Below are positions 3,204-42,221 of a stretch of 64,000 nucleotides of DNA, one piece after another; the stretch's first letter is position 1; each line of letters starts with the position of its first letter. Origin of the DNA: Lentibacter sp. XHP0401 (GTDB lineage Bacteria; Pseudomonadota; Alphaproteobacteria; Rhodobacterales; Rhodobacteraceae). The DNA lies in the NCBI RefSeq assembly GCF_025751535.1, contig NZ_JAOWLC010000013.1, positions 62,001 through 126,000 on the forward strand, given 5' to 3'. A program made the translations under genes and the position numbers. Under the pieces are notes generated by a model. It had not been told where the DNA came from and ran no database searches. It saw nothing but the letters and a program-made list of their open reading frames with translations.

Positions 3204-3251
3204 CATTCACACGCCCACGCGCGACCTACGTTGCAATAAATGAGCAAAACA

Positions 3252-17287: not shown

Positions 17288-18460
17288 GAAATGATCATGT
17301 AGCTTCACCACGAAACAGGAAGCAGCGCCTGCAAACACCTTGCCGCTTGCGGCAACTATTCAGCCAGGGCCTCAGCCACCGCGATATCCGCCATTTCTAA
17401 GACAGCTTCGCGGGAGGATGCCACCGCAATGAAGCGGCCGTTGTGGCAAAACTTCGCCCCCGCAACGCCGCTCGCGGCTTCCAGCGCGTCATCGGTTAAC
17501 CCCGCCCAAGCCACAGGGAGATCAGCGCGATTGTCGAATGTGTCATCACCCGTTCGGATTGTCGTAAGCGCCCAATCCGTGCCGCGCGGGTGGACCACAA
17601 ACAGAAGATGGTCAGCACCTGCCTTTTGCACGCCCGCGCGAAACGGCATGCCCATGGGAAGCTCAAGCACCCGCTCCTCGCCGGCCGCTTCAATGGCCGC
17701 CAAAACCATCGTCTCGGCGCGGTATTTCGCGGCTTTGCGCTTGACCTGCGCCTCCACAAAAGCCCGCGCTATGGGGAGGGCCGCCATAAATGCGCGATCA
17801 TCGGCCCTGTCAGTGCGGTCATCAAACGCGGGTTTCAGGCTCTCCAGCAAAACCGGCAAGGTCAGCCCGGCAAACAGCGGCCCCGCCTCGGAGGCATTGA
17901 CAGCGCCATTGTCGAGCAGATCAACGGGCAGAACAAAGTCACGATCAAACGCACTATGGATCGCTTCGATATCATGCTCAGGCACATCCATCGCGCGCAG
18001 GTAATCACGGCCATACTGCGCCCAGACCAACCCAAAGGAGCTAAAAGGCTGACCATCGCTCCGCAGCGGGTTGGGCCGTTGGTGATGATCAAAAATCTGT
18101 GCTTCCGCATCAAACTGGCCACCGACATCATAGATGATCCGATCCTGTGCAGGCATAATCCACGCCTTATCACGACTGCGGATGAGCTTAGCCTCCGGGA
18201 ACAGTCGCGTCAGGATGACCGAAGACAGAATCTCATCGGCATGAAATCCGCCGGAATGGGTGACGAGGTGGGTGATGGTCATAAAAGATGGGCTCCAGCC
18301 GGGCTTGAAACGAATTGGGCGACCAGAAAGGCCGCCCGTCGGTAAATGCGATCTCGGTTTTGCGTGAGCGTTAGAGGCGATCTGATCGCTGCGCCAGGTA
18401 AGTCAGCAAGCGGCAACATACGGGAACCTGATCAGATTCGCAGGATCTTTGCCCCGATTC
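17288..18460. repeat. MYG1 direct repeat, chromosomal copy (outside transposon)
   Basis: This block (gene plus both spacers) is repeated in the same orientation at about 40706-41877 with a constant offset of 23,418 bp across the gene. Identity is high over the gene (roughly 95% by eye) and drops in the spacer at 18384-18443. The match resumes at GATCTTTGCCCCGATTC, which ends 2 bases before the transposon target duplication. The left limit is approximate. Confidence 0.85.
17356..18282 (-). CDS. MYG1-family metal-dependent phosphoesterase (DHH-like), chromosomal copy
   Basis: 308 residues of the MYG1/COG4286 family. Metal-site motifs characteristic of DHH-type phosphoesterases are THSGGFHADE (residues 8-17), YDVGGQFD (51-58) and FDHHQR (64-69). 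The eukaryotic relative MYG1 is a 3'-5' RNA exonuclease; the bacterial role is not established. It probably once followed ndufS4 with a spacer of about 185 bp, now split by the transposon. The transposon carries a second copy differing at 13 residues, 12 of them in the N-terminal two thirds. Confidence 0.88.
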   Translation of the reverse strand: MTITHLVTHSGGFHADEILSSVILTRLFPEAKLIRSRDKAWIMPAQDRIIYDVGGQFDAEAQIFDHHQRPNPLRSDGQPFSSFGLVWAQYGRDYLRAMDVPEHDIEAIHSAFDRDFVLPVDLLDNGAVNASEAGPLFAGLTLPVLLESLKPAFDDRTDRADDRAFMAALPIARAFVEAQVKRKAAKYRAETMVLAAIEAAGEERVLELPMGMPFRAGVQKAGADHLLFVVHPRGTDWALTTIRTGDDTFDNRADLPVAWAGLTDDALEAASGVAGAKFCHNGRFIAVASSREAVLEMADIAVAEALAE

Positions 18461-18462
18461 AC

Positions 18463-18467
18463 ACAGC
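18463..18467. repeat. Left target-site duplication (ACAGC)
   Basis: ACAGC directly precedes the left terminal TGT. The same five bases directly follow the right terminal ACA at 41903-41907. Five-base duplications are the rule for Tn7/Tn5053-type DDE transposition. Confidence 0.9.
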
Positions 18468-18492
18468 TGTAAAACGGAGTTAAGTTGTCTCG
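18468..18492 (+). repeat. Left terminal inverted repeat
   Basis: It begins TGTAAAACGG and continues AGTTAAGTTGTCTCG; the inverse of the right end with one mismatch (position 7, A versus T). Its inner part GGAGTTAAGTT is the likely core of a TnsB (TniA) binding site. Confidence 0.92.
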
Positions 18493-18548
18493 AAGGGCTT
18501 TGCTTTTATTTAATATAATCAATTACTTAAATGGACCCCAAATAAAAG

Positions 18549-18567
18549 CGGGAGTTAAGTTTACGCG
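18549..18567 (+). repeat. Subterminal TnsB-type binding site
   Basis: CGGGAGTTAAGTTTACGCG repeats the core of the terminal repeat (GGAGTTAAGTT identical, then a similar C-CG tail) in the same orientation, 74 bases further in. Multiple sites per end are typical of Tn7-like elements. No equivalent second site is seen at the right end. Confidence 0.75.
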
Positions 18568-18602
18568 AAAATGGGGGCAAGATAACGCTAAGACGAGAGC
18601 GA

Positions 18603-18630
18603 AATAATAAAAAGGCCCGCAGAAGCGGGC
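18603..18630 (-). terminator. Intrinsic terminator of the transposition operon
   Basis: On the minus strand GCCCGC-TTCT-GCGGGC (18615-18630) is followed by CTTTTTATTATTT, starting 32 bases past the tniQ stop. Confidence 0.9.
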
Positions 18631-18661
18631 TCACATTCAGGTATTTTTAGAAAGATCAGGT

Positions 18662-20131
18662 CTACGACTTCATCTCGATAATAGCATTCACATCGACATA
18701 TATTGCCCTAACACCTGTTTTTTCAGGATGGCGAAAAGACGGGATCCGACCCTCTAAGATATCAACGAAAATATCCTTAAAGGGTCCTGCCCCGCGCTGG
18801 CAGGCATAAGAAATCGAGTGAAATTTCGCACCTGCGTTGGCGGCAAGCTCCGGAAGCGCACCCAACTTTGCGAGAATACCGTCGAGGTGCTGCCGAGCAA
18901 AGACGACCTGACGGACTGAACCGCGACTAGTTCTGGGGATGAGCGGCTTCACGACGCCTGCACTATAAAGAGTTTCAACCTGACGTTTGGTGGCCCCAAG
19001 GTATTCGGGAACGTCCTGGAGCGGCACTGCAGTTTTGAAGGCTTCAATCAGCGGAAGGATCTTCGCAGCCTCAAATATCATATTGCCGCTTTCTACATCA
19101 GTTGCTGACGAGGGAATCTGGCCAAGCCTCTTGAGGAGCCGCGCGAGACGGAGGCGACGGATACCGACTTCGACAGACAAACTATAGATCGTATGGAAAC
19201 GCCGTTCTGTAATCTTGACCCCAAGGACGATAGCACCCTGCTCCACGGCAGAGTGTTTCACGATATGATCGCGCAGAAGGTCCTTGATTGGTCCCGGATC
19301 AATCGCATTGCTCCGACGATCGAGCCAGTCGAACAGCGAACCATAGTAAGCCAGAGGGCCGGCCTGAACGGCCATCGCAGACGAAGCCTGGCGAATGGAG
19401 TTCAGGGCTTCCTCGATCGCCAGCGGACCTTCCCGATAGATAGAGAATCCTATGTCTGTGGCCTCCTCGGTCTGTGCGGGGTTCAGTTTTGTAACGGCGA
19501 CTTTATGTCCGTGCTCGAGGATTGCACCAAGCATTTCTGACGCTCCAAGAATCTGTTCAGTGGTCTGGCCGTCCAACCAAGGGGCATTGCCGCAGCGGTC
19601 ACCATCCAACCGACTGCGGAGCCAACACAGATATTCTGGCGTCTCGGCACAAGCCTCACGAGGCATGGCCAACGGCGATACTCCAAGTGCGATCCGCAAA
19701 TTGGTGGCATTCGCAACCGGAGCATTCTCCAGCCAGAGTGAATGCCGATCGCACCTGCTGACATGCCGGAACCCCCACAGCAGGCGAAAACGGCGTTCAT
19801 CCATAGGTCCATCTTCGGCGAGACAGGTGGGGCAATATCAGGATGCACGCGCTGAGAGAAACGCTTTAGAGCTATCTTCACCACGAAAGGATGCACACCT
19901 CTGAAACACCCGGATTGCGGTGCGTTGCACCTCGTCAAAGGCATGCCCCGTAGCCTCAGCCAATATCGCGACCGCATCCGGCCGACCCGAGATAAAGTGC
20001 TCTTTGTGAATACCCCAGTCTTTGAGAAGACGCTCCATACCGCGACCGGTATGCATCCGCGACAGCCGATCGGTATAGGACAGCAGCGTCTCTTCTGGGT
20101 CGATGGGAAGTTGCGGCCAAAGGGGCATCAC
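18662..20131 (-). pseudogene. tniQ: tniQ, target-selection protein, interrupted by in-frame TGA
   Basis: One frame of 489 codons, broken at codon 98 by TGA (19838-19840). The first 97 codons give the TniQ N-terminus (WPQLPIDPEETLLSYTDRLS). Directly after the stop, in the same frame, come YCPTCLAEDGP and then LLWGFRHVSRCDRHS, the TniQ zinc-finger (CPxC...CxxH). Homologues usually have Arg before YCP or FCP, so a single CGA to TGA transition explains the stop. The remainder could restart at the ATG at 19804, giving a 380-residue protein without the CPxC. TniQ/TnsD proteins choose the insertion site, so target selection is probably impaired unless the stop is read through. The start overlaps the tniB stop (ATGA). 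Confidence 0.85.
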
Positions 20132-21102
20132 AGTTCCCAGCCGATGGCTTTTAACTCCCTCTTGACCGAGCTCCAGTCATCGAGATGAAAGGGAGTCAAA
20201 GCGGCGTCACCATTGATCTTCCTGAACACTTGCTCCGCATACTCAAGAGAAAGTGCGGCATGTTTCCGGCGCACAGCGTCCCGAAGGATTTCCTTGCTCA
20301 GTTCCACACTGCGGCCAATCTGGCCGTGTGCCGCATAAAGAATGCGCTCCGCGAAAGCATCCTCCGCCTGGACCATAACACCAAGGTCTTCGGCAAACTT
20401 CATGAAATTCTTACCAAAAAGATCGGCCGGGCGGCTGTCAGGGCGGATATTAGGCAGGTGAAACTCCCGAAAACGACGGTAGGTCTCGGCGGACGACTCC
20501 TTCAGGATGTCATCGCGCAGGCTCGGAACTCCTGCGATGATCAGCGCGACGCCCGGGTCGGACTGCATGATGTGCTTCAATGACTGAATAGCCGCGAGCA
20601 CATCGCGACCCTGCCCGGCCCGAAGGATGTGGTGACATTCATCAATCACGACTGCCTTAATGCCAACGACACCAAAACGATGCCGCGCCATCTCCCAAGC
20701 ATCTGCCGCGCGCAACTTAGAGTCCAGCTTCTCATACCCCGTCCGCTCAAGGATGATTTCGGCGAGTTTCTTAACCGTCGCCTCAGGCGGCACAGTGATG
20801 TAGAGGGTGTTACCCCCCTCTTCCCTCTTGAACTCGGTCAGCACAGGGCTCTTACGCAAGGTGCGTTCGAGCAGCGCCGTCTTCCCATTCCCAGACCCAC
20901 CCAGCACCATCAGCCCCTTAGTTTCACCTGTAAGAGGATCACGACGGGGCTGGGCCGTCATCTGACCTTCGTCATCTACATCAAACAGGTCATACAGATA
21001 GTCGCTCAATGTCTCGTCCTGGCCAAACCGCAAGTAGCGCTGAGCCAACCAGTCGAGCTTCTCGGAGATCGTGACGGGGAAAATTGGGGACGTATCGTTC
21101 AT
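20128..21102 (-). CDS. tniB: TniB/TnsC-type AAA+ transposition regulator
   Basis: 324 residues. Walker A is GGSGNGKT (residues 68-75) and Walker B is AVVIDECHHIL (about 150-160), with the sensor region LIIAGVPSLRDDI near 200. TnsC/TniB ATPases polymerise on target DNA, connect the target selector (TniQ) to the transposase and give target immunity. It begins 3 bases after tniA ends and overlaps tniQ by 4 bases, so it is translationally coupled in the operon. Confidence 0.94.
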   Translation of the reverse strand: MNDTSPIFPVTISEKLDWLAQRYLRFGQDETLSDYLYDLFDVDDEGQMTAQPRRDPLTGETKGLMVLGGSGNGKTALLERTLRKSPVLTEFKREEGGNTLYITVPPEATVKKLAEIILERTGYEKLDSKLRAADAWEMARHRFGVVGIKAVVIDECHHILRAGQGRDVLAAIQSLKHIMQSDPGVALIIAGVPSLRDDILKESSAETYRRFREFHLPNIRPDSRPADLFGKNFMKFAEDLGVMVQAEDAFAERILYAAHGQIGRSVELSKEILRDAVRRKHAALSLEYAEQVFRKINGDAALTPFHLDDWSSVKRELKAIGWEL

Positions 21103-21105
21103 GAT

Positions 21106-23298
21106 TTACTCCATTGAATCTTCATCGGAAATTTCTACGCCAATCACATAGCCATCGGAAGAAGTGATGGTTTCGGGGTCAAGGGAAGCGCGACTGACCT
21201 CGGGCTCAGGCTCCCCCTCCAGCAGTTCTCGGTATTCCCCAGCCGCATGGCGCCGCTCTGCGGTATCGACAAAGCGCGAGAACTTCACGCACTCGTTGTC
21301 GAGCTCGTCGGGGGTTCTCGGTAAAGTAATCAACCCCGCCAAACGTTTCAGTCGGTAGGACTCGTCATTGATATCAATAATGAAGTTTCTGCGCGCACGG
21401 CCTTCCTCTTCATCCTCATCCGGCCTCTCTGAGAGCCATACCCGCAGATCGGTATCGGTTTTGCCAATCCACCTCGGGTCAGCTGCCGTAGCCGTCGTCC
21501 AGGAGCCGTCTTCTGTCATGATGCTAATAGCGCCAATATCGCCGTCCCATCGGAGAACTTCGACATGCTTGGTATTGGTTTTGTATCTCTTTTTGATGAC
21601 TTCATCTGTCTGATAATAAATGTGGTCAACCAGCAGGCCTTTAGGACCAAGCTTTCGGCGTTTATGGACCCCGAAGGCCGAGCGCATTTCGTCACTTGAT
21701 AACGAGCGTGGCTCGCTTACTTTTGTCGCTTTGGCCCATGCCTGCGCTGGAGACATCCTGAGGGCAGCATGAGTGCGCGTGTGATACGCATCCACGGTCC
21801 AGCGAACGAGCCAGCCCAGGAAGGCCTCCAGCGTCAGAGTTGCACGCTTTGCGGCATCGTTCTCACCCCGCTCAACCACATTGCTGAATGCACGCCCGGA
21901 GAACCGCAGCAGGAGGTCTTCGTGGACCGTCCTGAAGACGCGCTCAATGAAAGGCTTCAGCCACGGCTTGCCTGCAGGAGCACCAAGGTTGGTAATCCCA
22001 AGTGAGGCCAAGATATCGTATGCGTCATCAGTGATGTAAGCTGGCCCGCGATCGAATACGATTGCTTCCGGGGCACCAGCCATGGGCCAGCCGAATTTTG
22101 CACCTGCAGCATCGGCGATTGGGGACTTATCCATGTAAATCATTTCAAGCGTCTGCGCGAGTGGGCTTTCAACGGCCTGAGGCACGATCTGAAGGGCAAG
22201 AAAGCACCGAGTATGGACATCGATAGCCGCCGAAAGCGTGACACGGTGGGCGGAACCGTCCAACCCTATCAGCAGCTTAAGGGACTCCGGAAGATGATCG
22301 AAAAGGCCTGTTCTCTCCATAAGCACGAACAGGTCAACTGTATATTCATCAATCTCAACGCGCTCAAGCGCCCGGTGTGTCTCAATCCCCAGCCCAAGGG
22401 CGTGCATATCCTTGTAAGCCTTGTCCCAACCATGCTTGCGAATGGCGTGGTCAAGTGGAGCACTTTCTTTGATCAGATCCCTAATGTAGTCATACCCAGG
22501 CCTCTTGAGTTTCGGCTTAGGCACCGGCAACCTCTCACGACGGTCGTTCTCAGCGTCAATTAATGCCTGAACACTCTCGACACACGATTTAATCGTGACA
22601 CGCTCCTGATCAAAAACTTTACCAAGGGCTTCTGAAACGAATGTTTTGACCTCGCTGTCGTAATATGGAGACTTCCCGCAATTACCGTATTTGTCATACA
22701 GGGCCTTGGTCCCAACTTCACGCCACCGCCGATGCCTCCCCCACAGGGCCTGACCGCATTTGAACCCATGATGAAACTCTACCAGCCGCTCGCGTTCAGC
22801 CCGTGATAGCTTGACTTTTGCACCGCCTCGCCTTGTCCCCTTGATTGATTGCTCAGCAAGGTAATTCTCATACCTCGACTTTCCATTTTTTACGATTTTG
22901 GGAAGCTTGGCTTGGAAATCATCCCGGGTGGGCTTCAATTCCCCATTCTCCAACATCTCTTGGATGGCCAATGCGTATTGCTTCCGAAATCTTTGCCGCG
23001 CGACTTCCGCTGAAGACCGCTTGCCGAGTCTAACACCATTCGGGTCAACAGGCTTCGCCAGTGGCCGCTTAAGAAGCTTAAGTTTGCCCATGTTATTTTC
23101 GGTAACGATCGCCTCGTATGAAATAACGCCGGCTTCGCTTTCATGGCATTCGCCTGTATCAGGGTCTGCCCACTCTTCCCAAAATACGAAATATCCCTCG
23201 GGGCGAAGTTCCAATACACGCCCCTTGCGGATGCCTATCTGGAATTCACAGTCTTTCTCCAGCAGGATCTTGACGCGTTTATTGGAAGGGGAGGCCAT
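21106..23298 (-). CDS. tniA: TniA/TnsB-type DDE transposase
   Basis: 730 residues. A Mu-type integrase core (rve) lies at about residues 310-460 with catalytic acidic residues in RVEIDEYTVDL (D317 or D322), IVFDRGPAY (D416) and KPFIERVFRTV (E452). N-terminal helix-turn-helix regions (about 95-260) should bind the GGAGTTAAGTT sites at the ends, and a C-terminal beta-barrel follows. It cuts and joins the 3' ends during transposition. It overlaps the tnsA stop by one base. Confidence 0.95.
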   Translation of the reverse strand: MASPSNKRVKILLEKDCEFQIGIRKGRVLELRPEGYFVFWEEWADPDTGECHESEAGVISYEAIVTENNMGKLKLLKRPLAKPVDPNGVRLGKRSSAEVARQRFRKQYALAIQEMLENGELKPTRDDFQAKLPKIVKNGKSRYENYLAEQSIKGTRRGGAKVKLSRAERERLVEFHHGFKCGQALWGRHRRWREVGTKALYDKYGNCGKSPYYDSEVKTFVSEALGKVFDQERVTIKSCVESVQALIDAENDRRERLPVPKPKLKRPGYDYIRDLIKESAPLDHAIRKHGWDKAYKDMHALGLGIETHRALERVEIDEYTVDLFVLMERTGLFDHLPESLKLLIGLDGSAHRVTLSAAIDVHTRCFLALQIVPQAVESPLAQTLEMIYMDKSPIADAAGAKFGWPMAGAPEAIVFDRGPAYITDDAYDILASLGITNLGAPAGKPWLKPFIERVFRTVHEDLLLRFSGRAFSNVVERGENDAAKRATLTLEAFLGWLVRWTVDAYHTRTHAALRMSPAQAWAKATKVSEPRSLSSDEMRSAFGVHKRRKLGPKGLLVDHIYYQTDEVIKKRYKTNTKHVEVLRWDGDIGAISIMTEDGSWTTATAADPRWIGKTDTDLRVWLSERPDEDEEEGRARRNFIIDINDESYRLKRLAGLITLPRTPDELDNECVKFSRFVDTAERRHAAGEYRELLEGEPEPEVSRASLDPETITSSDGYVIGVEISDEDSME

Positions 23299-24017
23299 TA
23301 CGCAGCTACCCTACTTTCGATCAAGGTCTCGCCTACGATCCTTTCCGGGGTCAACAGGCTCGCCTGGCCATAACGGATTGCTCGCGCGACGCTGAAAAAC
23401 CCACGCCCGCCGATTTCCATTTCGGTCAAAAAATCAATAACGCTGATGGGGGCGGAAACCTTCCTCAAGCCATCGAGCACAGCTTCGTCCACTTCTGGTT
23501 CAGGATCGCGAGCCGCATGGAAAAGCTTGGAATTGTGAAGCTGCACAGGATGAATGTTGCGCTCAGTGATCGTTTTGACGTCATCACAAATATTGCCAAT
23601 AGCCGCCTGACTTACCCTTTCCATCAACGCCTGATAAATGGCGGTATTCGCGATCCTTTCGGGCTTCACTGAAATACAGATCCGCCGCCCGCTTTTCTGG
23701 GTAAACCTGAAATCGAAGAATTGTTTACTCGGTTTTCCATTTGGCAGCGTGAAAGGCTGGGCAGCCAACTGCTCTTCAAGGTCCAAGAAATCCGAACGGT
23801 AGATCAGGCATAGTGCTGCATGGTATTCCAGAAGGCTGGCGAACCCCAGACGCTGAAGCTGATCGCCCCTATTGAATACCAGTTCGCCTACGAAATGCGC
23901 CTTCGAGGATTTTGGGATCGGGCGCACCGCACGACTTTTGGCCGGCGTCTTCCTGAGATGTTGCTTCGTGTCTTTCATTAGCAGCTTTATCCATACGGCT
24001 AGACATGACTTCTCCAT
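23298..24017 (-). CDS. tnsA: TnsA-like endonuclease
   Basis: 239 residues. The restriction-like nuclease residues can be placed as E64 (ASLLEYHAAL), D102 (KQFFDFRF) and K118 (CISVKPE), the same E-D-K order and spacing as Tn7 TnsA (E63, D114, K132). TnsA makes the 5'-strand cuts, turning replicative movement into cut-and-paste. Its presence places the element with Tn7-like rather than Tn5053/Tn402-like transposons. The start is uncertain: ATG at 24017 or at 23978; neither has a strong ribosome site. It heads the operon and is preceded by a 464-bp control region. Confidence 0.88.
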   Translation of the reverse strand: MEKSCLAVWIKLLMKDTKQHLRKTPAKSRAVRPIPKSSKAHFVGELVFNRGDQLQRLGFASLLEYHAALCLIYRSDFLDLEEQLAAQPFTLPNGKPSKQFFDFRFTQKSGRRICISVKPERIANTAIYQALMERVSQAAIGNICDDVKTITERNIHPVQLHNSKLFHAARDPEPEVDEAVLDGLRKVSAPISVIDFLTEMEIGGRGFFSVARAIRYGQASLLTPERIVGETLIESRVAA

Positions 24018-24481
24018 TCTCGGCTTTACGCAAGCCGAGTTAGGATGGGGTGTTTCTGTTTGAGAATGCCAGTCTAGGCTGACTGACGGGGTTATAGAGG
24101 CGCACCCTTTGGTTAGTGCGCGTTTTCGTCGTTTGCCTTACTCCTGTGTCTTCACGATTGGCACGCACGAACATTCAGAACCTGCGTGAAACCCATGGGT
24201 TTCATGGGACGCGTTAGTTTCACACGTTAAGTGAAGAGTCAAATTTATTATTAATTTCAGATACTTATGCGAAAAAATCTTTGATATTACTTTTCCACAA
24301 CTACATCGCTTCTCCTTTTTCTTCGTTCTATAAATGCACGAACCGCATCGGCGGCTCTTTAAACATGCGATTATTGATCGTCAGGAGCCCAGTTATCGCT
24401 CCGGCGACGATTACAATATAGAACATATGGGAGCGTGCAGATAGTCAACGAGGGCAGGTTTATGGGGACAACCTATATACT
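24018..24481. promoter_or_regulatory. Upstream control region of tnsA (no gene)
   Basis: 464 bp without a convincing frame. It holds a perfect 16-bp palindrome GAAACCCATGGGTTTC (24188-24203), a hairpin GCGCAC/GTGCGC (24100-24121) that would lie in the tnsA leader, a weaker inverted pair TTTCAC/GTGAAG (24218-24236), and an AT-rich stretch at about 24240-24300 likely to contain promoters. The palindrome is a good operator candidate for control of transposition. None of it resembles the terminal repeats. Confidence 0.55.
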
Positions 24482-25084
24482 TTACTCAACAGATGCGCGG
24501 TTCTGTTTTTCAGCCTCAAATCTCTCGTTTACTCGTTCAGTTTGAACTTGAAACAACCACTTTAGGTGGTCAGTAGAGTTCGGAATGACATGATCCGGCA
24601 GATTTACCTTCTCGGTGCAAACCAGACTGCGAAAAAAGCCGGGGCCACCATCTCTCATGTCGTTCAACAACCGGTGACGGGCCTTGAACCCAGACCTGTA
24701 GGAAACACCTAGAAATTTGGCAAAAGTCTGCACCGTCATATTCCAGCCAATCGGGGAAGAATACTGGTCTTCGATGATCCGTTCGGCCCCTCGCAGCCAC
24801 CACAGCAGGGAAATGCGAGTTCCATGCAAAGGAGTGCCGGACGTTAACGAGAATTGCTTTCTGCAGCGCCGGCACGCAAATTCATCTCTTTTTTGAATCT
24901 GCTTCACGTCAGCCCCTGAACATCGCGGGCACTGTGGACCGTCAGGCCAACGCACTTCCGACAACCGTGCTCGGCTCCCTTCCTCTGTTGGGTATCGCTT
25001 TTTTATACCTTCAGGAGGCAACATCAGGGCAAGTGTGCCCCAGTAGATCTTGTCCTTCTCCACGTTGGTCAGCTTGCGAGACAT
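24482..25084 (-). CDS. IS1595-type zinc-ribbon DNA-binding protein without DDE domain
   Basis: 200 residues. The zinc ribbon is clear: WPDGPQCPRCSGADVK followed by FACRRCRKQFSLTSGTPLHGT (residues about 46-90), as in the N-terminus of IS1595-family transposases. A helical region with LLWWLRGAERIIED and VQTFAKFLGVSYRSGFKARHRL follows, as in those transposases, but the ISXO2-like DDE nuclease domain that should come next is absent. The C-terminus ends in a charged tail. It reads toward tnsA. It may be a domesticated DNA-binding factor or regulator of the transposon rather than an active transposase. Confidence 0.7.
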   Translation of the reverse strand: MSRKLTNVEKDKIYWGTLALMLPPEGIKKRYPTEEGSRARLSEVRWPDGPQCPRCSGADVKQIQKRDEFACRRCRKQFSLTSGTPLHGTRISLLWWLRGAERIIEDQYSSPIGWNMTVQTFAKFLGVSYRSGFKARHRLLNDMRDGGPGFFRSLVCTEKVNLPDHVIPNSTDHLKWLFQVQTERVNERFEAEKQNRASVE

Positions 25085-25405
25085 ATGTTTTTACCCAAGA
25101 CCCTATGACGCTCAAACGCCAGCGCCAACTCTTACGATCGTTTATGAGTGGTTAGACAGGTCATTTGCAATCGGCCTTACCGGCATACATGCGGTTTCTA
25201 AAATTTAGGCTGGCAAATAGTCAACGATGACTGCGGAGTAGATCTCCCTCACTTGCACTCGGTTATTCGCCGCTTTCAACCCTTTCGGGACCTCGCTCAC
25301 TTTCCTTAAACAAGTGAGCCGTTCAATGGCGCGGCTTGCAGACTGCATCGTTCAAGTGGGTTTGCGTCTCAGCTATTACGACACCGATTGAAACAGTCTA
25401 GCCCT
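25085..25405. other. Intergenic region before hsdM
   Basis: 321 bp between the divergent zinc-ribbon gene and hsdM. I see no gene, repeat or clear operator. It should contain both promoters. Confidence 0.5.
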
Positions 25406-26980
25406 ATGCCTAAGGTAGCGGAAGTAAATGAGGCACAGCACATGATTACCGGCACCGTTCGCACGCAAATCGACCAAATCTGGAACGCGTTTTGGTCGGG
25501 TGGTGTCTCTAACCCTCTGTCCGTCATTGAGCAGCTTACATTTCTGCTCTTCATCAAGCGGCTGGATGATCTTCATACTGTCGAAGAGCGTAAATCCGAA
25601 GACCTCGGCATCCCGATGCAGCGCAACATCTTTCCCGAAGGCGCGGATGATAAGGGCGAGCCATACGACAATCTGCGCTGGTCCCGTTTCAAGAACTTCG
25701 AGGCGCGCGAGATGATGCGCATCGTGGATGAGCACGTCTTTCCCTTCCTGCGTCAGATGGGTGAGGAAGGTTCCTCCTACGGCACCCACATGAAAGACGC
25801 GCGGCTTGGCTTTTCCAATCCCAACCTGTTGGCCAAGGTCGTGCAGATGCTCGACGACATCCCGATGGATGATCGCGACACCAAGGGCGACGTGTTCGAA
25901 TACATGCTGGGCAAGATCGCCAGCGCGGGCCAGAACGGTCAGTTTCGCACGCCACGCCATATCATCAAGCTGATGGTCAACCTCATGGCGCCAACCCCCC
26001 AGGATACCATCTGCGATCCGGCAGCGGGCACCTGCGGTTTCCTTGTGTCGGCGGGCGAATACCTGCGCGACCATCACCCCAAAATGCTGCGCGACAAAGA
26101 CCAGCGCAAACATTTCCACAACGACATGTTCCACGGCTTTGACTTCGACAGCACCATGCTGCGGATCGGCGCGATGAACATGACGCTGCACGGCGTGGAT
26201 AATCCCGACATCGCCTACCGCGACAGCCTTGCCGAGGAACATGGCGCGGACGAAGGGCGCTATTCCCTGATCCTTGCCAACCCGCCCTTTGCCGGATCGC
26301 TGGATTATGACACCACGTCCAAAGACCTGCTGAAGATCGTCAAAACCAAAAAGACCGAACTGCTGTTCATGGCGCTGTTCCTGCGCCTGATGCGCACGGG
26401 TGGGCGCGCGGCGGTGGTTGTGCCGGACGGGGTGCTGTTCGGCTCCTCCAAGGCGCACAAAGACATCCGCAAAATGCTGGTCGAGGATCACAAGCTGGAC
26501 GCGATCATCAAAATGCCTTCGGGCGTGTTCCGCCCCTATGCCGGTGTGTCCTGCGCCATCGTGGTGTTCACCAAGACGGGTGTGGGCGGCACGGAGGACG
26601 TGTGGTTCTACGACATGACCGCCGACGGGATGAGCCTTGATGACAAGCGCACGCCGCTGCTGGACGACGCCAAGCTTGGCCCCGTGCCGGAGGTTGCACT
26701 GTCCGAAGACGAGCACGCCAAGAACAACCTGCCCGATATCCTGACCCGCTGGCAGGCGCTGGAGGGGGAGGCCGACCGCCCCCGCACCGCGCAAAGCTTT
26801 ATGGTGCCCGCGTCCGAGATTATCGCCACCGGATCATGGGACCTGTCCCTGAACCGCTACAAAGAGATCGAGCACGAAGAGGTCGAGCACCAATCCCCCG
26901 CCGAGATCATCGCGGAGCTGCGCGCGCTGGAAGCAGAGATCGCCGAGGGGTTGGATCGGTTGGAGGGGATGTTGGGATGA
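25406..26980 (+). CDS. hsdM: Type I restriction-modification methyltransferase subunit
   Basis: 524 residues from the ATG chosen here; a TTG 18 bases upstream and an ATG at 25442 are alternatives. An N-terminal HsdM_N helical domain (IDQIWNAFWSGGV...FLLFIKRLDDL) is followed by an N6-adenine methyltransferase domain with the SAM motif DPAAGTCGFLV (about residue 205) and the catalytic NPPFAGS motif (about 290). Together with HsdS it methylates the recognition site; with HsdR it forms the restriction complex. hsdS starts within its stop codon. Confidence 0.95.
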   Translation: MPKVAEVNEAQHMITGTVRTQIDQIWNAFWSGGVSNPLSVIEQLTFLLFIKRLDDLHTVEERKSEDLGIPMQRNIFPEGADDKGEPYDNLRWSRFKNFEAREMMRIVDEHVFPFLRQMGEEGSSYGTHMKDARLGFSNPNLLAKVVQMLDDIPMDDRDTKGDVFEYMLGKIASAGQNGQFRTPRHIIKLMVNLMAPTPQDTICDPAAGTCGFLVSAGEYLRDHHPKMLRDKDQRKHFHNDMFHGFDFDSTMLRIGAMNMTLHGVDNPDIAYRDSLAEEHGADEGRYSLILANPPFAGSLDYDTTSKDLLKIVKTKKTELLFMALFLRLMRTGGRAAVVVPDGVLFGSSKAHKDIRKMLVEDHKLDAIIKMPSGVFRPYAGVSCAIVVFTKTGVGGTEDVWFYDMTADGMSLDDKRTPLLDDAKLGPVPEVALSEDEHAKNNLPDILTRWQALEGEADRPRTAQSFMVPASEIIATGSWDLSLNRYKEIEHEEVEHQSPAEIIAELRALEAEIAEGLDRLEGMLG

Positions 26981-28161
26981 GTTGGCCCCTTGTCGAATTA
27001 CAAAGTTTCTGCCGCACGGGAAGCGGAACAACACCATCAAGGAAGAATGCAGAGTTCTATGAGGGCACGATCCCTTGGGTCAAATCTGGCGAATTACGCG
27101 AAACAGAAATTTGCTCAACGGCGGAACATGTTTCTGCTGAGGCCCTTGAGAAAACACCTTTGAAACTTGTTCCGAAAGGCGCGCTATTGGTTGCGATGTA
27201 TGGTGCCACAGTAGGCCGTGTAGGCTTACTTGGCATTGAGGCAACTACTAACCAAGCGGTATGCCATGTGGTCCCAGACCCGTCCAAAGCTGATACTGGA
27301 TACATGTTTCACTTACTGCAGGCCAAAGCTGCTGAACTCGTGGCACGTGGTGTCGGTGGTGCGCAACCAAACATTAGCCAAGGCATAATAAAGTCACTCA
27401 AAATCCCCGTCCCGCCGCTGGAGGAGCAGAAGCGGATTGCGGGGATATTGGATCAGGCGGACGCGCTCCGCCGCCTCCGCACCCGCGCCCTCGACAAACT
27501 CAACACCCTCGGACAGGCGATCTTTCATGAGATGTTTGGGGATGTGGTGCGAAACTCCAAAGGTTGGGCTGACAAAGATTATTTGGAAAGTATCGCAGAC
27601 ATCGCTTCAGGAATTACAAAGGGCCGCAAAACTGGCGATGCACCGTTGCGCACTGTGCCATACATGGCAGTGTCAAACGTTCAAGACCAGCGCCTCAAGA
27701 TGGACGTTGTCAAAGAAATTGAAGCGACAGAGGCCGAAATTGCCAGATATCTACTCAAGCAAGGCGACCTGCTTTTAACTGAGGGTGGCGACCCCGATAA
27801 ATTGGGGCGCGGATGCCTCTGGAGTGGAGAGCTTCCCGAGTGCATCCATCAGAACCATGTATTCCGCGTTCGTATCAGTGATGAGCGCGTCAAACCAATT
27901 TTCTTACAGTGGCTCGTCGGGAGCCAGCGAGGGAAGCGATACTTTCTAAGCGTTGCAAAGCAAACCACAGGTATCGCATCAATAAATAAAACCCAGTTAA
28001 AGAAGTTTCCGCTTCTGTTGCCTCCTTTGGACCAGCAAAAAGAATTCGAATCTCGCATTTCGGTATTGGCCAAATCGTTGGGCCAGCAAGTTTCCGCAGC
28101 GAAGAAAGAGAAATCCCTCTTTGCCGCGCTCCAACACCGCGCATTTCGCGGGGAGCTTTGA
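26977..28161 (+). CDS. hsdS: Type I restriction-modification specificity subunit
   Basis: 394 residues with two target-recognition domains, each closed by a conserved helical spacer: the first ends at LKIPVPPLEEQKRIAGILDQ (about residues 145-165), the second at FPLLLPPLDQQKEFESRISV (about 345-365). The two domains define the two halves of a bipartite DNA target, which cannot be predicted here. ATG overlaps the hsdM stop (ATGA), so the two are coupled. Confidence 0.94.
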   Translation: MSWPLVELQSFCRTGSGTTPSRKNAEFYEGTIPWVKSGELRETEICSTAEHVSAEALEKTPLKLVPKGALLVAMYGATVGRVGLLGIEATTNQAVCHVVPDPSKADTGYMFHLLQAKAAELVARGVGGAQPNISQGIIKSLKIPVPPLEEQKRIAGILDQADALRRLRTRALDKLNTLGQAIFHEMFGDVVRNSKGWADKDYLESIADIASGITKGRKTGDAPLRTVPYMAVSNVQDQRLKMDVVKEIEATEAEIARYLLKQGDLLLTEGGDPDKLGRGCLWSGELPECIHQNHVFRVRISDERVKPIFLQWLVGSQRGKRYFLSVAKQTTGIASINKTQLKKFPLLLPPLDQQKEFESRISVLAKSLGQQVSAAKKEKSLFAALQHRAFRGEL

Positions 28162-28282
28162 CCACAGCTCACTCAAAGGTTGAGAAAACCAACACTCCGC
28201 TCTAACCTCCTGAAATTCAGGAATTCACAAATCCAATTGCCCGTTATCAGGCTTCGGCCACCCAAATTTGTAAAGTGTCGCC

Positions 28283-30382
28283 ATGAAAGCCACCCACGCC
28301 CATCTTTTGAAGTTCATCAATAGCGCCACGCAGTTCGTGATCCCGATTTATCAGCGCACCTACTCATGGACCGAAAAAGAATGTCAGCAACTTTGGGGCG
28401 ATATCCGCAAGGCCGGCAACACCGATCATATCCCCGTGCATTTCCTTGGCTCGGTTGTCTATATTGAGGAAAGCCTGTCCAACGCGTCAAGCAGGGCCCC
28501 GTTGCTTGTCATTGACGGCCAACAGCGTCTGACATCAGTGACCCTTCTTTTGGCGGCCCTCGCGCGCAAGGTTGGCGACGATGAACCTTTCGACGGGTTT
28601 TCCTTCAAAAAAATCCGCAACCGCTATCTGCTTGACCCTGATGAAACAGGTGAACGTCAATTCAAGCTTCTGCTATCCCAGACAGATCGCGAAACGCTTA
28701 ATGCGCTTGTGCAGGGCAACGCATTGCCAGACCTAAAATCCAGGCGGCTGTCGGAGAATTTTGATCTCTTTTGCCGTTGGCTCGATCAGGATAAAGGTGC
28801 CGTTGCAGAGATCTGCGCGGGTTTGGCAAAGTTGATGATCGTCGATGTCGCGTTGAGCCGTGATCACGACAATCCGCAGCTGATTTTTGAAAGCATGAAC
28901 TCGACCGGTAAAAAGCTGTCACAGGCCGATCTGATCCGTAATTTCGTGCTGATGGGACTGGAGCCTGACCTTCAAACGCGCCTTTACGAGCAGTATTGGC
29001 GCCGTATGGAAGAAGGGTTCGGCCAATCGGCCTATGCCTCGCACTTTGACGGCTTCATGAGGCATTATCTCACTGTCGTAACAGGATCGATCCCGCGTCT
29101 GGATGACGTGTATGAAGCCTACAAGCTTTACGCACATGAACAACTTGCGCACGCGCGCGACATCGAGGATCTAGTTCGGGAAGTGTGGGAATTTTCCAGT
29201 TGTTTTCGTGCGTTGGCATTGGGGCAAGAGAAGAACCCGCAGCTTGCAATGGGGTTCAATGATCTGCGCGAGTTAAAGGTAGACGTCGCGTATCCATTCC
29301 TGCTCGAAGTTTACAGAGATTTCGAAGCTGGCCTGCTGAATGCTGATGAGTTCCTCGAGATCGTTCGATTGGTCGAATCCTATGTGTTCCGGCGCGCAAT
29401 CTGTGCTGTCCCCACCAATTCAATGAACAAGACATTCGCGACTTTCGGACGGTCGCTAAAGAAAGATCGATATCTTGAGAGCGTGAAGGCACATTTCCTT
29501 ACTATGAAGTCCTATCGCCGTTTCCCCGTCGATGATGAGTTTATCGCCCGCATGCAAGACCGCGACCTCTACAACTTTAGAAGCCGCGCCTACTGGTTGC
29601 GGAGGTTTGAGAACTTCGGGCGCAAAGAGCGCGTCCATATTGATGACTACACCATCGAACACATCATGCCACAGAATGAAATCCTGCCAAAGCCATGGCG
29701 TGACGCCCTTGGCGACGATTGGTCCGAAATCCAGGCAAAGTGGCTGCACACTCTCGGAAACCTGACCTTAACTGCTTATAATTCTGAATACAGCGATAAG
29801 AGTTTCGATCAAAAGCGGGACATGGAAGGCGGGTTCAAGGAAAGCCCGTTGCGTGTAAGTCGAGGCCTCGCCCAGTTGGAAAAGTGGGACGAGAACGCCA
29901 TCAAAGCCAGAGCGAATACAATGGCGAAGCACGCAGCCGAAATTTGGTCGAGGCCTCAATTGGCTGCGTCAGTATTGTCGACTTATCAAGAGCCAACTTC
30001 GACAGCTGCTGAATACTCTATTGATGACCACCCCCACCTTTTGAATGGCGAAATGAGTAGTTTGTTTGCCGAATTCAGCAGAGAAGTTAAAGCTCTCGAC
30101 CCTTGTGTGTCCGAGCAGTTCTTGAAGCTCTATGTTGCGTTCAAAGCAGAAACAAATTTCGTGGATGTGATACCTCAGGTGAAGGCGCTCTTGGTTTCGC
30201 TTAAGATTGATATTGAAGAGCTATCTGACCCTAGGAAACTTGCTGTTGATGTCCGTGACCGTGGGCGTTGGGGGAATGGCAATACTGAAGTGAAGTTTAG
30301 TGATCGAGACGATCTTCCATACGTCATTGGGTTGGTCCGACAGGCTCTCGACTTACAGTTGGGCTCGGAAGTCACTACATGA
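28283..30382 (+). CDS. DUF262/DUF1524 (GmrSD-like) nuclease within the type I locus
   Basis: 699 residues. The N-terminal DUF262 domain has FVIPIYQRTYSWTEKECQQL (residues about 17-36) and the ParB-like nucleotide-site motif LLVIDGQQRLTSVTLL (about 75-90). The DUF1524 domain has the HNH-type motif DDYTIEHIMPQNE with HTLGNLTLTAYNSEYSDKSF (about 455-515). The last 110 residues look like a DUF5655 tail. This architecture resembles GmrSD-type IV restriction enzymes that cut modified phage DNA. It lies between hsdS and hsdR and overlaps hsdR by 4 bases (ATGA), so it is made in step with the restriction subunit. Confidence 0.88.
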   Translation: MKATHAHLLKFINSATQFVIPIYQRTYSWTEKECQQLWGDIRKAGNTDHIPVHFLGSVVYIEESLSNASSRAPLLVIDGQQRLTSVTLLLAALARKVGDDEPFDGFSFKKIRNRYLLDPDETGERQFKLLLSQTDRETLNALVQGNALPDLKSRRLSENFDLFCRWLDQDKGAVAEICAGLAKLMIVDVALSRDHDNPQLIFESMNSTGKKLSQADLIRNFVLMGLEPDLQTRLYEQYWRRMEEGFGQSAYASHFDGFMRHYLTVVTGSIPRLDDVYEAYKLYAHEQLAHARDIEDLVREVWEFSSCFRALALGQEKNPQLAMGFNDLRELKVDVAYPFLLEVYRDFEAGLLNADEFLEIVRLVESYVFRRAICAVPTNSMNKTFATFGRSLKKDRYLESVKAHFLTMKSYRRFPVDDEFIARMQDRDLYNFRSRAYWLRRFENFGRKERVHIDDYTIEHIMPQNEILPKPWRDALGDDWSEIQAKWLHTLGNLTLTAYNSEYSDKSFDQKRDMEGGFKESPLRVSRGLAQLEKWDENAIKARANTMAKHAAEIWSRPQLAASVLSTYQEPTSTAAEYSIDDHPHLLNGEMSSLFAEFSREVKALDPCVSEQFLKLYVAFKAETNFVDVIPQVKALLVSLKIDIEELSDPRKLAVDVRDRGRWGNGNTEVKFSDRDDLPYVIGLVRQALDLQLGSEVTT

Positions 30383-33300
30383 CCCAATTCGCATTTCTCT
30401 CCTCCGATTTCCCCGACCTCAAGCAACACGCCGAAAAGGCCGAAAAGTTGGCCCTGTCCGACCCGCGCGGCGCGTGTTTCTGGGCGCGCCTCACGTTGGA
30501 AACGGCGCTGAAATGGCTTTATCGTCGTGATCCGGTGTTGCGGAATCCTTACGATCAGAATCTGGCCGCCCTGATCGCGGAACCCAGCCTTGAGGCGCTG
30601 ACCGGCCCCGCCATCGCCACCAAGGCAAAATACATCAAGGATCAGGGCAACCGCGCCGCCCATGACAGTGGCAAGCCCCTGACCCCGCAGGATGCGGCCT
30701 CAACCGTGCGCGAGCTGTTCCACGTCTGCTACTGGATCGCCCGCACTTATGCGACGGGGGCGAAACCTGATCCGGCGCTGACTTTTGACATCGCCAAGCT
30801 GGAAAAGTCCCTCACCATCTCGGCCAGCACGGTTGCGCAGATCCAAAAGATCGAGGGCGACGTCAAAGCGGCCAACAAACGCGCAGAAGATGCCGAGGAG
30901 GCGCGCAAAACCTCTGAGGATGGCCGCAAGGCGCTCGAGGAAGAGCTATCCCGCCTGCGCACCGAAGTCGCCGAGGCCCGCCGCGCCAACCAAGCCGTTC
31001 CGGACGACCACGATTACGACGAAGCCACCACACGCGACGCATTCATCGACCTGTTGCTTAACGAGGCAGGTTGGCCTTTGGATCAACCCCGTGACCGTGA
31101 ATATCCGGTATCCGGAATGCCAAACCAGAAAGGCACCGGTTTTGTCGATTATGTGCTTTGGGGCGATGACGGCAAACCCCTGGCCGTGATTGAGGCCAAA
31201 CGCACCAAGAAAGACAGCCGCACAGGGCAGCAACAGGCAAAACTCTACGCCGACTGCCTTGAGAAACAGTTCGGGCGCCGCCCCGTCATGTTCACCACCA
31301 ACGGGTATGAGCATTGGCTCTGGGATGACGCGCAATATCCCCCGCGTTCCGTGTCGGGGTTCCTAAAGAAAGACGAGCTACAGCTGCTGCACCAACGTCG
31401 TGGCAATGTGAAACGCCTTGGAGATGTCGAGATCGACCAAGACATCGCAGGCCGTTTCTATCAACAGCGGGCCATCCGTCGCGTGGGCGAAGCGTTCGAG
31501 AAACACGCACAGCGTAAAGCATTGTTAGTCATGGCGACAGGCAGCGGCAAAACCCGCACTGTGATCGCGCTGATCGATCAGCTGATGCGCGCCAACCGCG
31601 TCAAGCGCGTGCTGTTCCTCGCCGACCGGATCGCATTGGTGAAACAGGCGCACGGTGCATTCAAGGCACATTTGGGTGCGACACCGAGCGCCAACCTGCT
31701 CGAGCGCCACGACCCCAAAAAGAATGACCACTCCGGCGCACGCGTTTGCTTGTCGACCTACCCCACGATGATGGGCCTCATTGAGCAGATGAAGGGCGGC
31801 GAAAAGCGGTTCGGCTCGGGTCACTTTGACATGATCGTCATTGATGAGGCACACCGATCCGTTTACCGGAAATACCGCGCCATTTTTGAATATTTTGACA
31901 GTCTACTGGTCGGTCTAACCGCCACCCCGCGCGACGAAATCGATAAAGATACCTATTCGCTCTTTGGTCTCGAAAAAGGTGTTCCGACGGACTCCTATGA
32001 CCTCGACGATGCCGTAAGTGACGGTTTCCTCGTGCCGCCAAAGACTATCTCGGTGCCGCTAAAGTTCCAGCGTGACGGCATCGACTATAATCAGCTGACG
32101 GACGAAGAAAAGGAAGAATGGGACGCAATCGAGTGGGACGAGGAGGGCAACGTTCCCGACCGTGTGGAGAGTGCCGAGCTGAATAAATGGCTGTTCAACA
32201 TCAATACCGTGGACAAGGTCCTGGAACACTTAATGCGCAACGGCGTCAAAGTTGCGGGTGGGGATCGCCTTGGCAAGACAATCATATTCGCGAAAGGCAA
32301 CAAGCACGCCCAATTCATTGTCGACAGGTTCGATGCAAACTATCCCCACTATAAAGGGCAATTCGCCAAGCTTATTGATTACAGTGTCAGCTATACCCAA
32401 TCCCTGATTGATGACTTTTCCGAAAAAGAAAAAGCACCACATATCGCGGTGTCGGTAGACATGCTCGACACGGGCATCGACGTGCCTGAAGTGGTGAACT
32501 TGGTATTCTTCAAGATCGTCCGCTCAAAAACCAAATTCTGGCAAATGGTTGGTAGAGGCACACGTTTGTGCCCGGATTTATTCGGCCCGGGTGAGGACAA
32601 GAGCGAGTTCGTGATCTTCGATTTTTGCCAGAACCTCGAGTTCTTTAGCGAAAACCCCAACGTGACCGATGGCGCGGGAACCAAACCGATCGGTGAACGC
32701 CTGTTTGTAACGCGCGTAGAGCTGATCGAAGCGGCACAAGAGCACGAGGAGCCACATGATGAGTTCGTAGCCGCCATCAAATTGCGCCTTCAAAACGAAG
32801 TGAGCGGCATGCCTATCGAGAACTTTATCGTGAGGGCTAAACGCCGGAGCGTTGAAAGGTTCCAGAAACCCGATGGCTGGTCAGAACTTGACCTTGAGGC
32901 CCGGCTCGCGCTTGTTGAAGATGTTGCCGGCCTTCCATCGGCTTTTGATGATGGCGGACTACCAGCTAAGCAGTTTGACCTTCTTTGCTTAAACGCACAG
33001 CTCCAGCTACTTAAAAATGAGAGTGGGTTTAGCCGTCTGCAACAGCGCATTATTCAGTTTGCGTCCGCGCTGGAGGAATTATCCAATGTGCCATTGGTGG
33101 CGACGGAATTGGAACTGATCCTGGAGATCCAGACAGATGCCTATTGGGATGATGTCACCGTTGAAATGCTCGAAACTATCAGGCGCCGACTGCGTGATCT
33201 TGCGGAGCTGATCCAGCCAAAGGAACGGAAGATCGTGATCACCGATTTTGAGGATGAAATCGGAACGGGAGAAGACGTCACGATGCCCGCTATCGGGGAC

Positions 33301-33774
33301 GGCGTGGACAAGGCGCGCTTCAAAATGAAAGTTCGCCGGTTTGTAGATGAGCACCGCAATCACATCACGCTAAATAAAGTCAGACTTGGTGAGCAATTGA
33401 CCAAGCAGGATCTGGAGGAATTGGGCCGGATACTGATCAATGAGGGCGTTGCTGACGATACGGCTTTGGAGGATCTTGCGATGGACGGAGGGCTGGGTCG
33501 CTTCCTAAGATCGCTGACTGGGTTGGATCGGGCTGCAGCGAAGGGGGCCTTTAGCGACTTCACCACACAACACCAGCTCAACGCCGATCAAACCGAGTTT
33601 CTTGATCTGATAATCGATAGCTTAACCGAGAGTGGCATCATTGAACCCCAAACTTTCTATGAAAGCCCATTTACCGACTTAGATGACATGGGGATCGCTG
33701 GGATTTTTGACCGAGAGCAAGCCAAAACGATTATCGGCATAGTCAGAACACTGAATGATGCCGCGGCAGCGTGA
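30379..33774 (+). CDS. hsdR: Type I restriction endonuclease subunit with N-terminal DUF4145
   Basis: 1131 residues. A DUF4145 domain (about 1-115; ARLTLETALKWLYRR) is followed by a charged coiled coil (about 135-205), then the HsdR_N nuclease (TGFVDYVLWGDDGKPLAVIEAKRTKKD, with the D...ExK residues at about 253-275). The SF2 translocase follows with Walker A MATGSGKTRTVIALI (about 385), VIDEAHRSVYRKY (about 490) and QMVGRGTRLCPDLFG (about 720), and then an EcoEI-type C-terminal domain. It translocates DNA and cleaves unmethylated DNA as part of the HsdRMS complex. Confidence 0.95.
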   Translation: MTQFAFLSSDFPDLKQHAEKAEKLALSDPRGACFWARLTLETALKWLYRRDPVLRNPYDQNLAALIAEPSLEALTGPAIATKAKYIKDQGNRAAHDSGKPLTPQDAASTVRELFHVCYWIARTYATGAKPDPALTFDIAKLEKSLTISASTVAQIQKIEGDVKAANKRAEDAEEARKTSEDGRKALEEELSRLRTEVAEARRANQAVPDDHDYDEATTRDAFIDLLLNEAGWPLDQPRDREYPVSGMPNQKGTGFVDYVLWGDDGKPLAVIEAKRTKKDSRTGQQQAKLYADCLEKQFGRRPVMFTTNGYEHWLWDDAQYPPRSVSGFLKKDELQLLHQRRGNVKRLGDVEIDQDIAGRFYQQRAIRRVGEAFEKHAQRKALLVMATGSGKTRTVIALIDQLMRANRVKRVLFLADRIALVKQAHGAFKAHLGATPSANLLERHDPKKNDHSGARVCLSTYPTMMGLIEQMKGGEKRFGSGHFDMIVIDEAHRSVYRKYRAIFEYFDSLLVGLTATPRDEIDKDTYSLFGLEKGVPTDSYDLDDAVSDGFLVPPKTISVPLKFQRDGIDYNQLTDEEKEEWDAIEWDEEGNVPDRVESAELNKWLFNINTVDKVLEHLMRNGVKVAGGDRLGKTIIFAKGNKHAQFIVDRFDANYPHYKGQFAKLIDYSVSYTQSLIDDFSEKEKAPHIAVSVDMLDTGIDVPEVVNLVFFKIVRSKTKFWQMVGRGTRLCPDLFGPGEDKSEFVIFDFCQNLEFFSENPNVTDGAGTKPIGERLFVTRVELIEAAQEHEEPHDEFVAAIKLRLQNEVSGMPIENFIVRAKRRSVERFQKPDGWSELDLEARLALVEDVAGLPSAFDDGGLPAKQFDLLCLNAQLQLLKNESGFSRLQQRIIQFASALEELSNVPLVATELELILEIQTDAYWDDVTVEMLETIRRRLRDLAELIQPKERKIVITDFEDEIGTGEDVTMPAIGDGVDKARFKMKVRRFVDEHRNHITLNKVRLGEQLTKQDLEELGRILINEGVADDTALEDLAMDGGLGRFLRSLTGLDRAAAKGAFSDFTTQHQLNADQTEFLDLIIDSLTESGIIEPQTFYESPFTDLDDMGIAGIFDREQAKTIIGIVRTLNDAAAA

Positions 33775-33822
33775 AAGACGAAGTGTTGCGATTGTGGCTT
33801 TAGGCCCCAGACACTCCCGGCG

Positions 33823-34605
33823 GTGAATTCGCAGTGTGAATGCATCATGGAACTGAAATGCGGTCTATGGCAGCATGCTGATATGATCGAATTCCGCACT
33901 CTCGCCGATGACCATCCCGACCTCGCGCATTCTCCGATGCTTCGAGGCGCTCTCCTGACCCTGCAGTATGCGCAGAAACACGGCTCAATTGGCTTGACTA
34001 ATACCAAGGCCTTCAAGCGCATCTTCGTTCATTGGGCCGTCGAGAATTTCGACTGGCCGGGGAAAAGTGCAGAAGAGATGTTCCGCTACAACAAGGTGAT
34101 CAATGAATATGATTTTCCCCCGCTCGAGGTTTTGCATTTCCTGCTGATTTCCCTGCGTTTGGGACGTCATTTCAAGGGTGAGTTTCGGCTGACCAAGCGT
34201 GGCGCCGAGTTGACGCAAGCACCTGGCCGCTTGTTCGCCGAGTTGATTCCGCACTTTGTGCTCTGGATCGATCACGCTTCCTATGCACGCTTTGACGGCC
34301 GCCCCTTAGGAAAATGGGACGTCTGGATGAACGTGATTAACGTAGAGGCCGATCATGGCACGACCGAGGCTGCCTTGTTCGAAACCTTCTACGGTGAGCC
34401 AAAAGATTGGCATACCGAGGGGTGGCGAGAGATGGCAGCGTTTTCATCGTGCGTGCTGCGGCCGCTCGAATGGGCGGGATTGCTGATCGAGACTCGCGAA
34501 GACGGCGCCGGCAAGCAAGTGTCTCATGTGTTCAAGACCCCGCTCTGGCGCAGCGCGCTTAACCTTGACACAGATGACATGCTGCGTCCGATGTTCGTTC
34601 AGTGA
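33823..34605 (+). CDS. Unknown island protein
   Basis: 260 residues, or 240 from the internal ATG at 33883 (MIEFRTLADDHPDL), which may be the true start; neither has a strong ribosome site. No catalytic motif or membrane segment is evident. It is rich in aromatic residues and looks alpha-helical (HFLLISLRLGRHFKGEFRLTKRGAELTQAPGRLF), suggestive of a winged-helix-like fold. It lies 48 bases past hsdR and is convergent with hamB. I do not recognise a named family with confidence. The setting suggests a defence or island-maintenance role, which is inference only. Confidence 0.7.
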   Translation: MNSQCECIMELKCGLWQHADMIEFRTLADDHPDLAHSPMLRGALLTLQYAQKHGSIGLTNTKAFKRIFVHWAVENFDWPGKSAEEMFRYNKVINEYDFPPLEVLHFLLISLRLGRHFKGEFRLTKRGAELTQAPGRLFAELIPHFVLWIDHASYARFDGRPLGKWDVWMNVINVEADHGTTEAALFETFYGEPKDWHTEGWREMAAFSSCVLRPLEWAGLLIETREDGAGKQVSHVFKTPLWRSALNLDTDDMLRPMFVQ

Positions 34606-34728
34606 GATGTTTCTACTGCTCCCCAAAACGCGACGCGGCTCGCTTATGACGGCCCAAACCGGGCCTTTCTAATGTCTTCAATCGCTGCGGTGCATCTTCA
34701 TCGGAACAGACGTTCATTGTTGGCCCAG

Positions 34729-38911: not shown

Positions 38912-39109
38912 AATTGGTTTTCTAACAATATATGTCTGAACACACCTATAGGGGGAAGCCTGTAATGTGCGTTCACTCAGTAATAGATGGATAAGATACG
39001 GTCGGTTTTCGTGAAATCAGACTGCGCGATGCCTAGTCGGTCTGAATGTCTGCTAACGCGGAGCGACCCTTGCAATATTGCACCGCAGCTAATGACGGCT
39101 CTCCGCCGA

Positions 39110-40640: not shown

Positions 40641-40705
40641 TACGCCCCTTTTCCTGTTGAAGCTGGGCTTAGCGTCGAGCGAAGGGCGATCGCGCCTCAT
40701 GGGTA

Positions 40706-41877: not shown

Positions 41878-41902
41878 CGAGACAACTTAACTCCGATTTA
41901 CA
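41878..41902 (-). repeat. Right terminal inverted repeat
   Basis: Plus-strand CGAGACAACTTAACTCCG followed by ATTTACA; inverse of the left end with one mismatch. Only one TnsB-type core (AACTTAACTCC) is present here, compared with two at the left end. Confidence 0.92.
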
Positions 41903-41907
41903 ACAGC
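41903..41907. repeat. Right target-site duplication (ACAGC)
   Basis: Identical to 18463-18467. It lies 2 bases from the ndufS4 stop codon. Confidence 0.9.
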
Positions 41908-41909
41908 AT

Positions 41910-42221
41910 TCAATGCGTCCATGCACCTCGGCGATTGGTTGCGAAGTTCTCGCCATACCCGCCTGCGCGAATGTTGGCTTTGCGCACCTTCGGCTCGCTC
42001 ACAACGGCCTCAATCCCGTGATCCTCGGCATACTCGATCGCAGCTTCTTTACTGTCAAAACGCAAACGCACCTGAGCTTGCGTGTCCGCCGAAGATGTCC
42101 AGCCCATAAGCGGGTCAACCTCACGCCGCGAAGCAGGCGCAAAATCCAGAACCCAGCGTTTACTTTTTGCTGATCCTGATTGCATCGCGTTGCGGGCGGG
42201 TTTGTAAATGCGTGCGCGCAT
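41910..42221 (-). CDS. NDUFS4-like ETC complex I subunit
   Basis: 103 residues from [16 protein letters not shown], with AAAGGAG about 8 bases upstream. The motifs [39 protein letters not shown] and the C-terminal [23 protein letters not shown] are those of the alphaproteobacterial/mitochondrial NDUFS4 family, an accessory subunit at the NADH-dehydrogenase module of complex I. Its 3' end lies immediately beside the transposon, so it is the best candidate for the attachment gene. Confidence 0.9.

Follow-up and report, generated by a model that had tools for sequence, protein, structure and literature searches.

The tniQ gene of a Tn7-like transposon in Lentibacter sp. XHP0401 is interrupted by one in-frame TGA in an element that is otherwise complete. 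We read this TGA, with a probability of roughly three in four, as a nonsense mutation that recently inactivated the target selector. On this reading, one resident Tn7-like defence-island transposon has lost its target selector while its transposase, ends and cargo are intact, plausibly the initial stage in the conversion of a mobile element into a fixed island. All coordinates (Table 1) are positions in the window, the whole stretch of 64,000 nt that was analysed (NZ_JAOWLC010000013.1, 62,001-126,000).

Table 1. Features of the transposon, its transposition genes, cargo and surroundings, in window coordinates
Feature	Position	Strand	Basis or remark
MYG1-family gene, copy 1, outside the element	17356..18282	-	PF03690
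Right end left over from an earlier element, directly adjoining the present left end	18439..18463	-	tandem insertion
Target-site duplication ACAGC, left copy	18463..18467	.
Whole transposon, 23,435 bp	18468..41902	.
Left terminal repeat TGTAAAACGGAGTTAAGTTGTCTCG	18468..18492	+
tniQ (TnsD-type target selector), frame intact apart from one TGA	18662..20131	-	PF06527, alignment, predicted fold
In-frame TGA in tniQ	19838..19840	-	codon 98 from GTG, 97 from ATG
tniB (TnsC-type AAA ATPase), intact	20128..21102	-	PF05621; Walker A GGSGNGKT, Walker B VIDE
tniA (TnsB-type DDE transposase), intact	21106..23298	-	D317, D416, E452
TnsA-like endonuclease gene, intact	23298..24017	-	position and E/D/K motif
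IS1595-type zinc-ribbon protein	24482..25084	-	PF12760; recurs beside tnsA in relatives
Type I restriction-modification genes hsdM, hsdS, hsdR, with a GmrSD/DUF262 gene between	25388..33774	+	cargo
DEAD-box helicase (HamB-like) and 300-aa partner	34729..38911	-	cargo
DDE insertion-sequence transposase (DUF772/DDE_Tnp_1) in the cargo	39180..40583	-
MYG1-family gene, copy 2, inside the element beside the right end	40774..41700	-	96% protein identity to copy 1
Right terminal repeat TGTAAATCGGAGTTAAGTTGTCTCG	41878..41902	-	second, diverged repeat next inward
Target-site duplication ACAGC, right copy	41903..41907	.
NDUFS4-like (NDUS4) gene, 3' end = attachment site	41910..42221	-	PF04800, 3.3e-36

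A complete Tn7-like transposon past an NDUFS4-like gene

The Lentibacter element is a complete Tn7-like transposon. Its 25-bp terminal repeats begin with 5'-TGT and differ from each other at one position, and its 5-bp target-site duplication is perfect; the matching ends and the perfect duplication together indicate that the insertion was complete. In relatives, the same kind of transposon end lies ~200 bp past tniQ. Tandem transposon ends also recur in relatives, which, with the older right-end remnant beside the present left end, indicates that the site has been hit repeatedly. Like Tn7 (TnsABCD, attTn7 past glmS), the element combines a putative TnsA-like gene and TnsB-, TnsC- and TnsD-type genes with 5'-TGT ends, a 5-bp duplication and insertion immediately downstream of a conserved gene. 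Unlike Tn7, its attachment gene is NDUFS4-like, with the element starting 7 bp after the stop codon, tnsE was not identified, and tniQ carries a nonsense codon.

The NDUFS4-like 3' end near uvrB is the Tn7-style attachment site of this transposon group. Junctions in which the NDUFS4 3' end is joined to a transposon end within 14 bp occur in 23 of 395 genomes of the family, against none for the reversed pattern used as a control; the NDUFS4-like gene is present at the match in all 20 junction loci that were fetched, with uvrB nearby in 18. In one genome of the same genus (L069), homology to both outer flanks is found ~107 bp apart and the insert is absent; elsewhere in the genus, the right flank is preserved as far as the point of insertion. 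Since the group uses this same site and the insertion was complete, TniQ was probably functional when the element inserted. With the site and the end sequences of the group now defined, a single locus serves to compare intact with broken copies throughout Rhodobacteraceae.

Two other candidate attachment genes were considered. A tRNA-Arg (17 kb) was rejected, as a genus relative that lacks the insert has the tRNA and NDUFS4 ~100 bp apart. MYG1 adjoins tniQ in Lentibacter and in two further genomes (G076, G521), yet it is the far-side neighbour. Both were rejected in view of the many genomes with an end directly past the NDUFS4 stop codon. A literature search joining the words Tn7-like and NDUFS4 returned no paper naming the site; it covered those words only, so absence from the literature is not proven. 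At four loci (L075, L083, L094, L100) whose fetched stretch is devoid of transposon genes, NDUFS4 and MYG1 are separated by a solitary right end made of two adjoining repeats, as if the element had been deleted or MYG1 had moved with a bare end.

Transposition genes

The tnsA-like gene, tniA and tniB had been described as apparently intact in the original prediction, and the catalytic and Walker motifs, once checked, proved to be present. TniB scores 66.5 bits against PF05621 (cut-off 22.4) and keeps its Walker motifs, and the TniA profile matches TnsB structures (E 5.5e-31) with the D, D and E positions retained. The putative TnsA fits by position and by its E/D/K motif, with no match in Pfam and PDB searches; an NCBIfam search likewise returned no match for TniQ, TniB or TnsA. 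The IS1595-type zinc-ribbon protein adjoining tnsA has no obvious transposase domain, is also found in L046, L047, L050 and L108, and is possibly an accessory protein.

A single in-frame stop ahead of the zinc finger

The tniQ frame contains exactly one internal stop, the TGA, and ends in TAG, in exact agreement with the predicted frame and coordinates. The remaining five frames over the region contain 6-22 stops each, so a 489-codon frame with a single stop is not due to chance. Translation could start at a GTG (20131) or at an ATG (20128) that overlaps the tniB stop codon; the ATG is the likelier start, which would make the interrupted codon number 97. Read through, the frame scores 58.9 bits against the Pfam TniQ family (cut-off 27) and can be aligned with intact homologues over its full length, and the two halves scored separately reach 22.7 and 23.1, just below the cut-off. 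The TGA does stand, as proposed, just ahead of the zinc motif: YCPTC follows, with ligands C100 and C103 after codon 98. An alignment of 17 homologues shows no variation at the zinc ligands C100, C103, C127 and H130, and the Lentibacter gene retains all four.

Structural modeling of the read-through protein, from an alignment of the window and genome loci with plasmid rows left out, gave a mean pLDDT of 87.9. In the predicted fold, the part resembling TniQ structures spans residues 2-306 (Z up to 13.4); MerR/excisionase-like modules follow at ~310-368, 367-426 and 438-489, with modest Z scores of 4.5-6.4. This combination of a TniQ core with C-terminal DNA-binding modules points to a TnsD-type selector as the predicted read-through product. 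The shared architecture of TniQ/TnsD selectors of Tn7-like transposons comprises a helical domain, a zinc finger, a second helical domain and C-terminal DNA-binding modules (Faure et al. 2023, PMC10293859); the Lentibacter gene differs in that its coding sequence is interrupted. Only the first helical domain lies upstream of the stop, the rest of the TniQ core and the MerR-like modules being encoded beyond it. The intact TniQ/TnsD frame that a self-homing Tn7-like transposon needs is absent here.

The interrupted codon and the state of related elements

The interrupted codon is covered by 21 distinct relatives with an identity of 54% or higher, and the residue is Arg in 18 (CGC, CGT or CGG), Cys in two (TGC) and Gly in one (GGC); the arginine that had been expected in homologues is thus found in most of them. 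None of the 21 has a stop there, and the TGA is accordingly private to the Lentibacter copy among the sampled genomes. This count also disposes of a conserved split of tniQ at the TGA position, the circumstance that had been named as refuting the prediction. A single CGA-to-TGA transition, as first suggested, is possible, but CGA is used at this codon by none of the 21 relatives and at none of the 42 Arg codons of the interrupted gene itself. The nearest sampled relatives are no closer than about 70% identity; a search for a near-identical copy on plasmids found none, nor did a single-sequence scan of genome contigs find close relatives.

Intact copies of the transposon are common in related bacteria. 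Rhodobacteraceae relatives such as those in Sulfitobacter undariae (L104), Maritalea mobilis (L105) and Pacificibacter maritimus (L110) share the gene order and the same kind of terminal repeats, their TniQ proteins are 63-69% identical, and in P. maritimus (genome G261) an end sits at the same NDUFS4 site. They differ from the Lentibacter copy in having an open tniQ frame, with Arg at the codon that is interrupted in Lentibacter. Four other loci (L109, L113, L114, L117) have an open tniQ beside the left end but have lost tniA together with part of tniB. In L113 the contig stops within the locus; L117 is a small derivative, complete from end to end, that lies in tandem with a second one.

No sign of relaxed selection on tniQ was detected. 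Its terminal branch in the Lentibacter element (0.26) is not longer than those of tniB (0.303), tniA (0.355) and tnsA (0.359), which argues that the stop is either recent or an error. Independent tniQ lesions are present in 8 of 35 distinct relatives (L045, L055, L057, L060, L108, L123, L126 and L128), and loss or disruption of tniA is seen in more relatives. Decay of the transposition modules is thus ordinary in this group, and the broken tniQ is ordinary in kind.

A probable recent nonsense mutation and its alternatives

In the history that we favour, a complete Tn7-like element would have inserted just past the NDUFS4-like 3' end by means of its own TniQ, a TnsD-type protein that, by analogy with Tn7 and judged here from anatomy, would bind the attachment site and recruit the TniB ATPase. 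Later, and recently, a nonsense mutation would have arisen at codon 98 of tniQ. Translation would now yield the first helical domain but neither the zinc finger nor the C-terminal DNA-binding modules, and the present copy presumably cannot home to its site unaided. The transposase, ATPase, ends and cargo would remain, leaving an element that is immobile alone and could in principle be mobilised in trans by the proteins of a relative. The description of the element as frozen at its site is accordingly the best one for self-directed homing, but the intact ends could still be acted on in trans. In Tn7 TnsD, mutating any of the four zinc ligands lowers transposition to <0.001 of wild type, and the nonsense truncations that were found are inactive (PMC2918618).

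A sequencing or assembly error that masks a sense codon and an intact tniQ is unlikely. In its favour, the TGA is the sole lesion in a well-conserved gene whose divergence is not excessive; a miscalled base would give the same picture, and the absence of other decay in tniQ is just as compatible with an error. The assembly, however, comprises 28 contigs at 100% completeness and 0.2% contamination, a quality at which erroneous single substitutions are generally rare; the frequency of tniQ lesions in the group also speaks for a real mutation. Preservation of the frame and of the zinc ligands beyond the stop, together with the need for full-length TniQ, would suit readthrough of the TGA, by a near-cognate tRNA or by recoding, that yields a little full-length protein and so limits transposition. 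This is improbable, as the stop is conserved in none of the 21 close relatives and is directly followed by T, an efficient termination context. Selenocysteine recoding was rejected: the best SelB match in the genome reaches 93 bits, below the cut-off of 242, and the one tRNA-Sec match (47.2 bits) is a tRNA-Ser(tga) according to ARAGORN. Readthrough had been placed on an equal footing with loss of function, a standing that these results do not support. A working switch, in which low-level readthrough or restart would limit the supply of TniQ and let the element leave its site only on rare occasions, is a long shot.

We give very little credence to a functional split TniQ, assembled from a 97-residue piece and a 380-residue piece restarting at Met110. 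There is an in-frame ATG 12 codons past the stop, and TniQ/TnsD genes split into partial genes have been recorded (PMC10293859), but relatives are split elsewhere or not at all, and the ATG is not preceded by a clear ribosome-binding site. The proposed sizes are correct as ORF lengths; neither fragment, however, includes YCPTCLAEDGP, so two of the four invariant zinc ligands are lost. The YCPTC absent from both is half of the zinc site that is essential in Tn7 TnsD, where the CPxC ligands are individually required, and N-terminally truncated TnsD showed no interaction with TnsC and could not be purified (PMC2918618). The split selector, raised as one option in the original prediction, is thus poorly supported. 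Homing might instead be kept, despite a real mutation, by a second TniQ acting in trans, and an intact TniQ-family gene does exist on contig 27; its product is only ~26% identical and of different length, and relatives of tniA, tniB and tnsA are absent from the surrounding 20 kb, which makes such rescue highly improbable. A recent nonsense mutation in the selector remains the best explanation.

Cargo and neighbouring genes

The cargo of the element includes defence genes (Table 1). The HamB-like helicase and its partner are a possible Hachiman variant; the 300-aa partner weakly resembles HamA (11.4 bits against a cut-off of 25). The MYG1-family gene, present in two copies in the window, was sought without success in six further genomes belonging to the genus. 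Elsewhere in the window, a SAM/SAH riboswitch aptamer (RF01727) at 3249-3298 scores above the gathering threshold.
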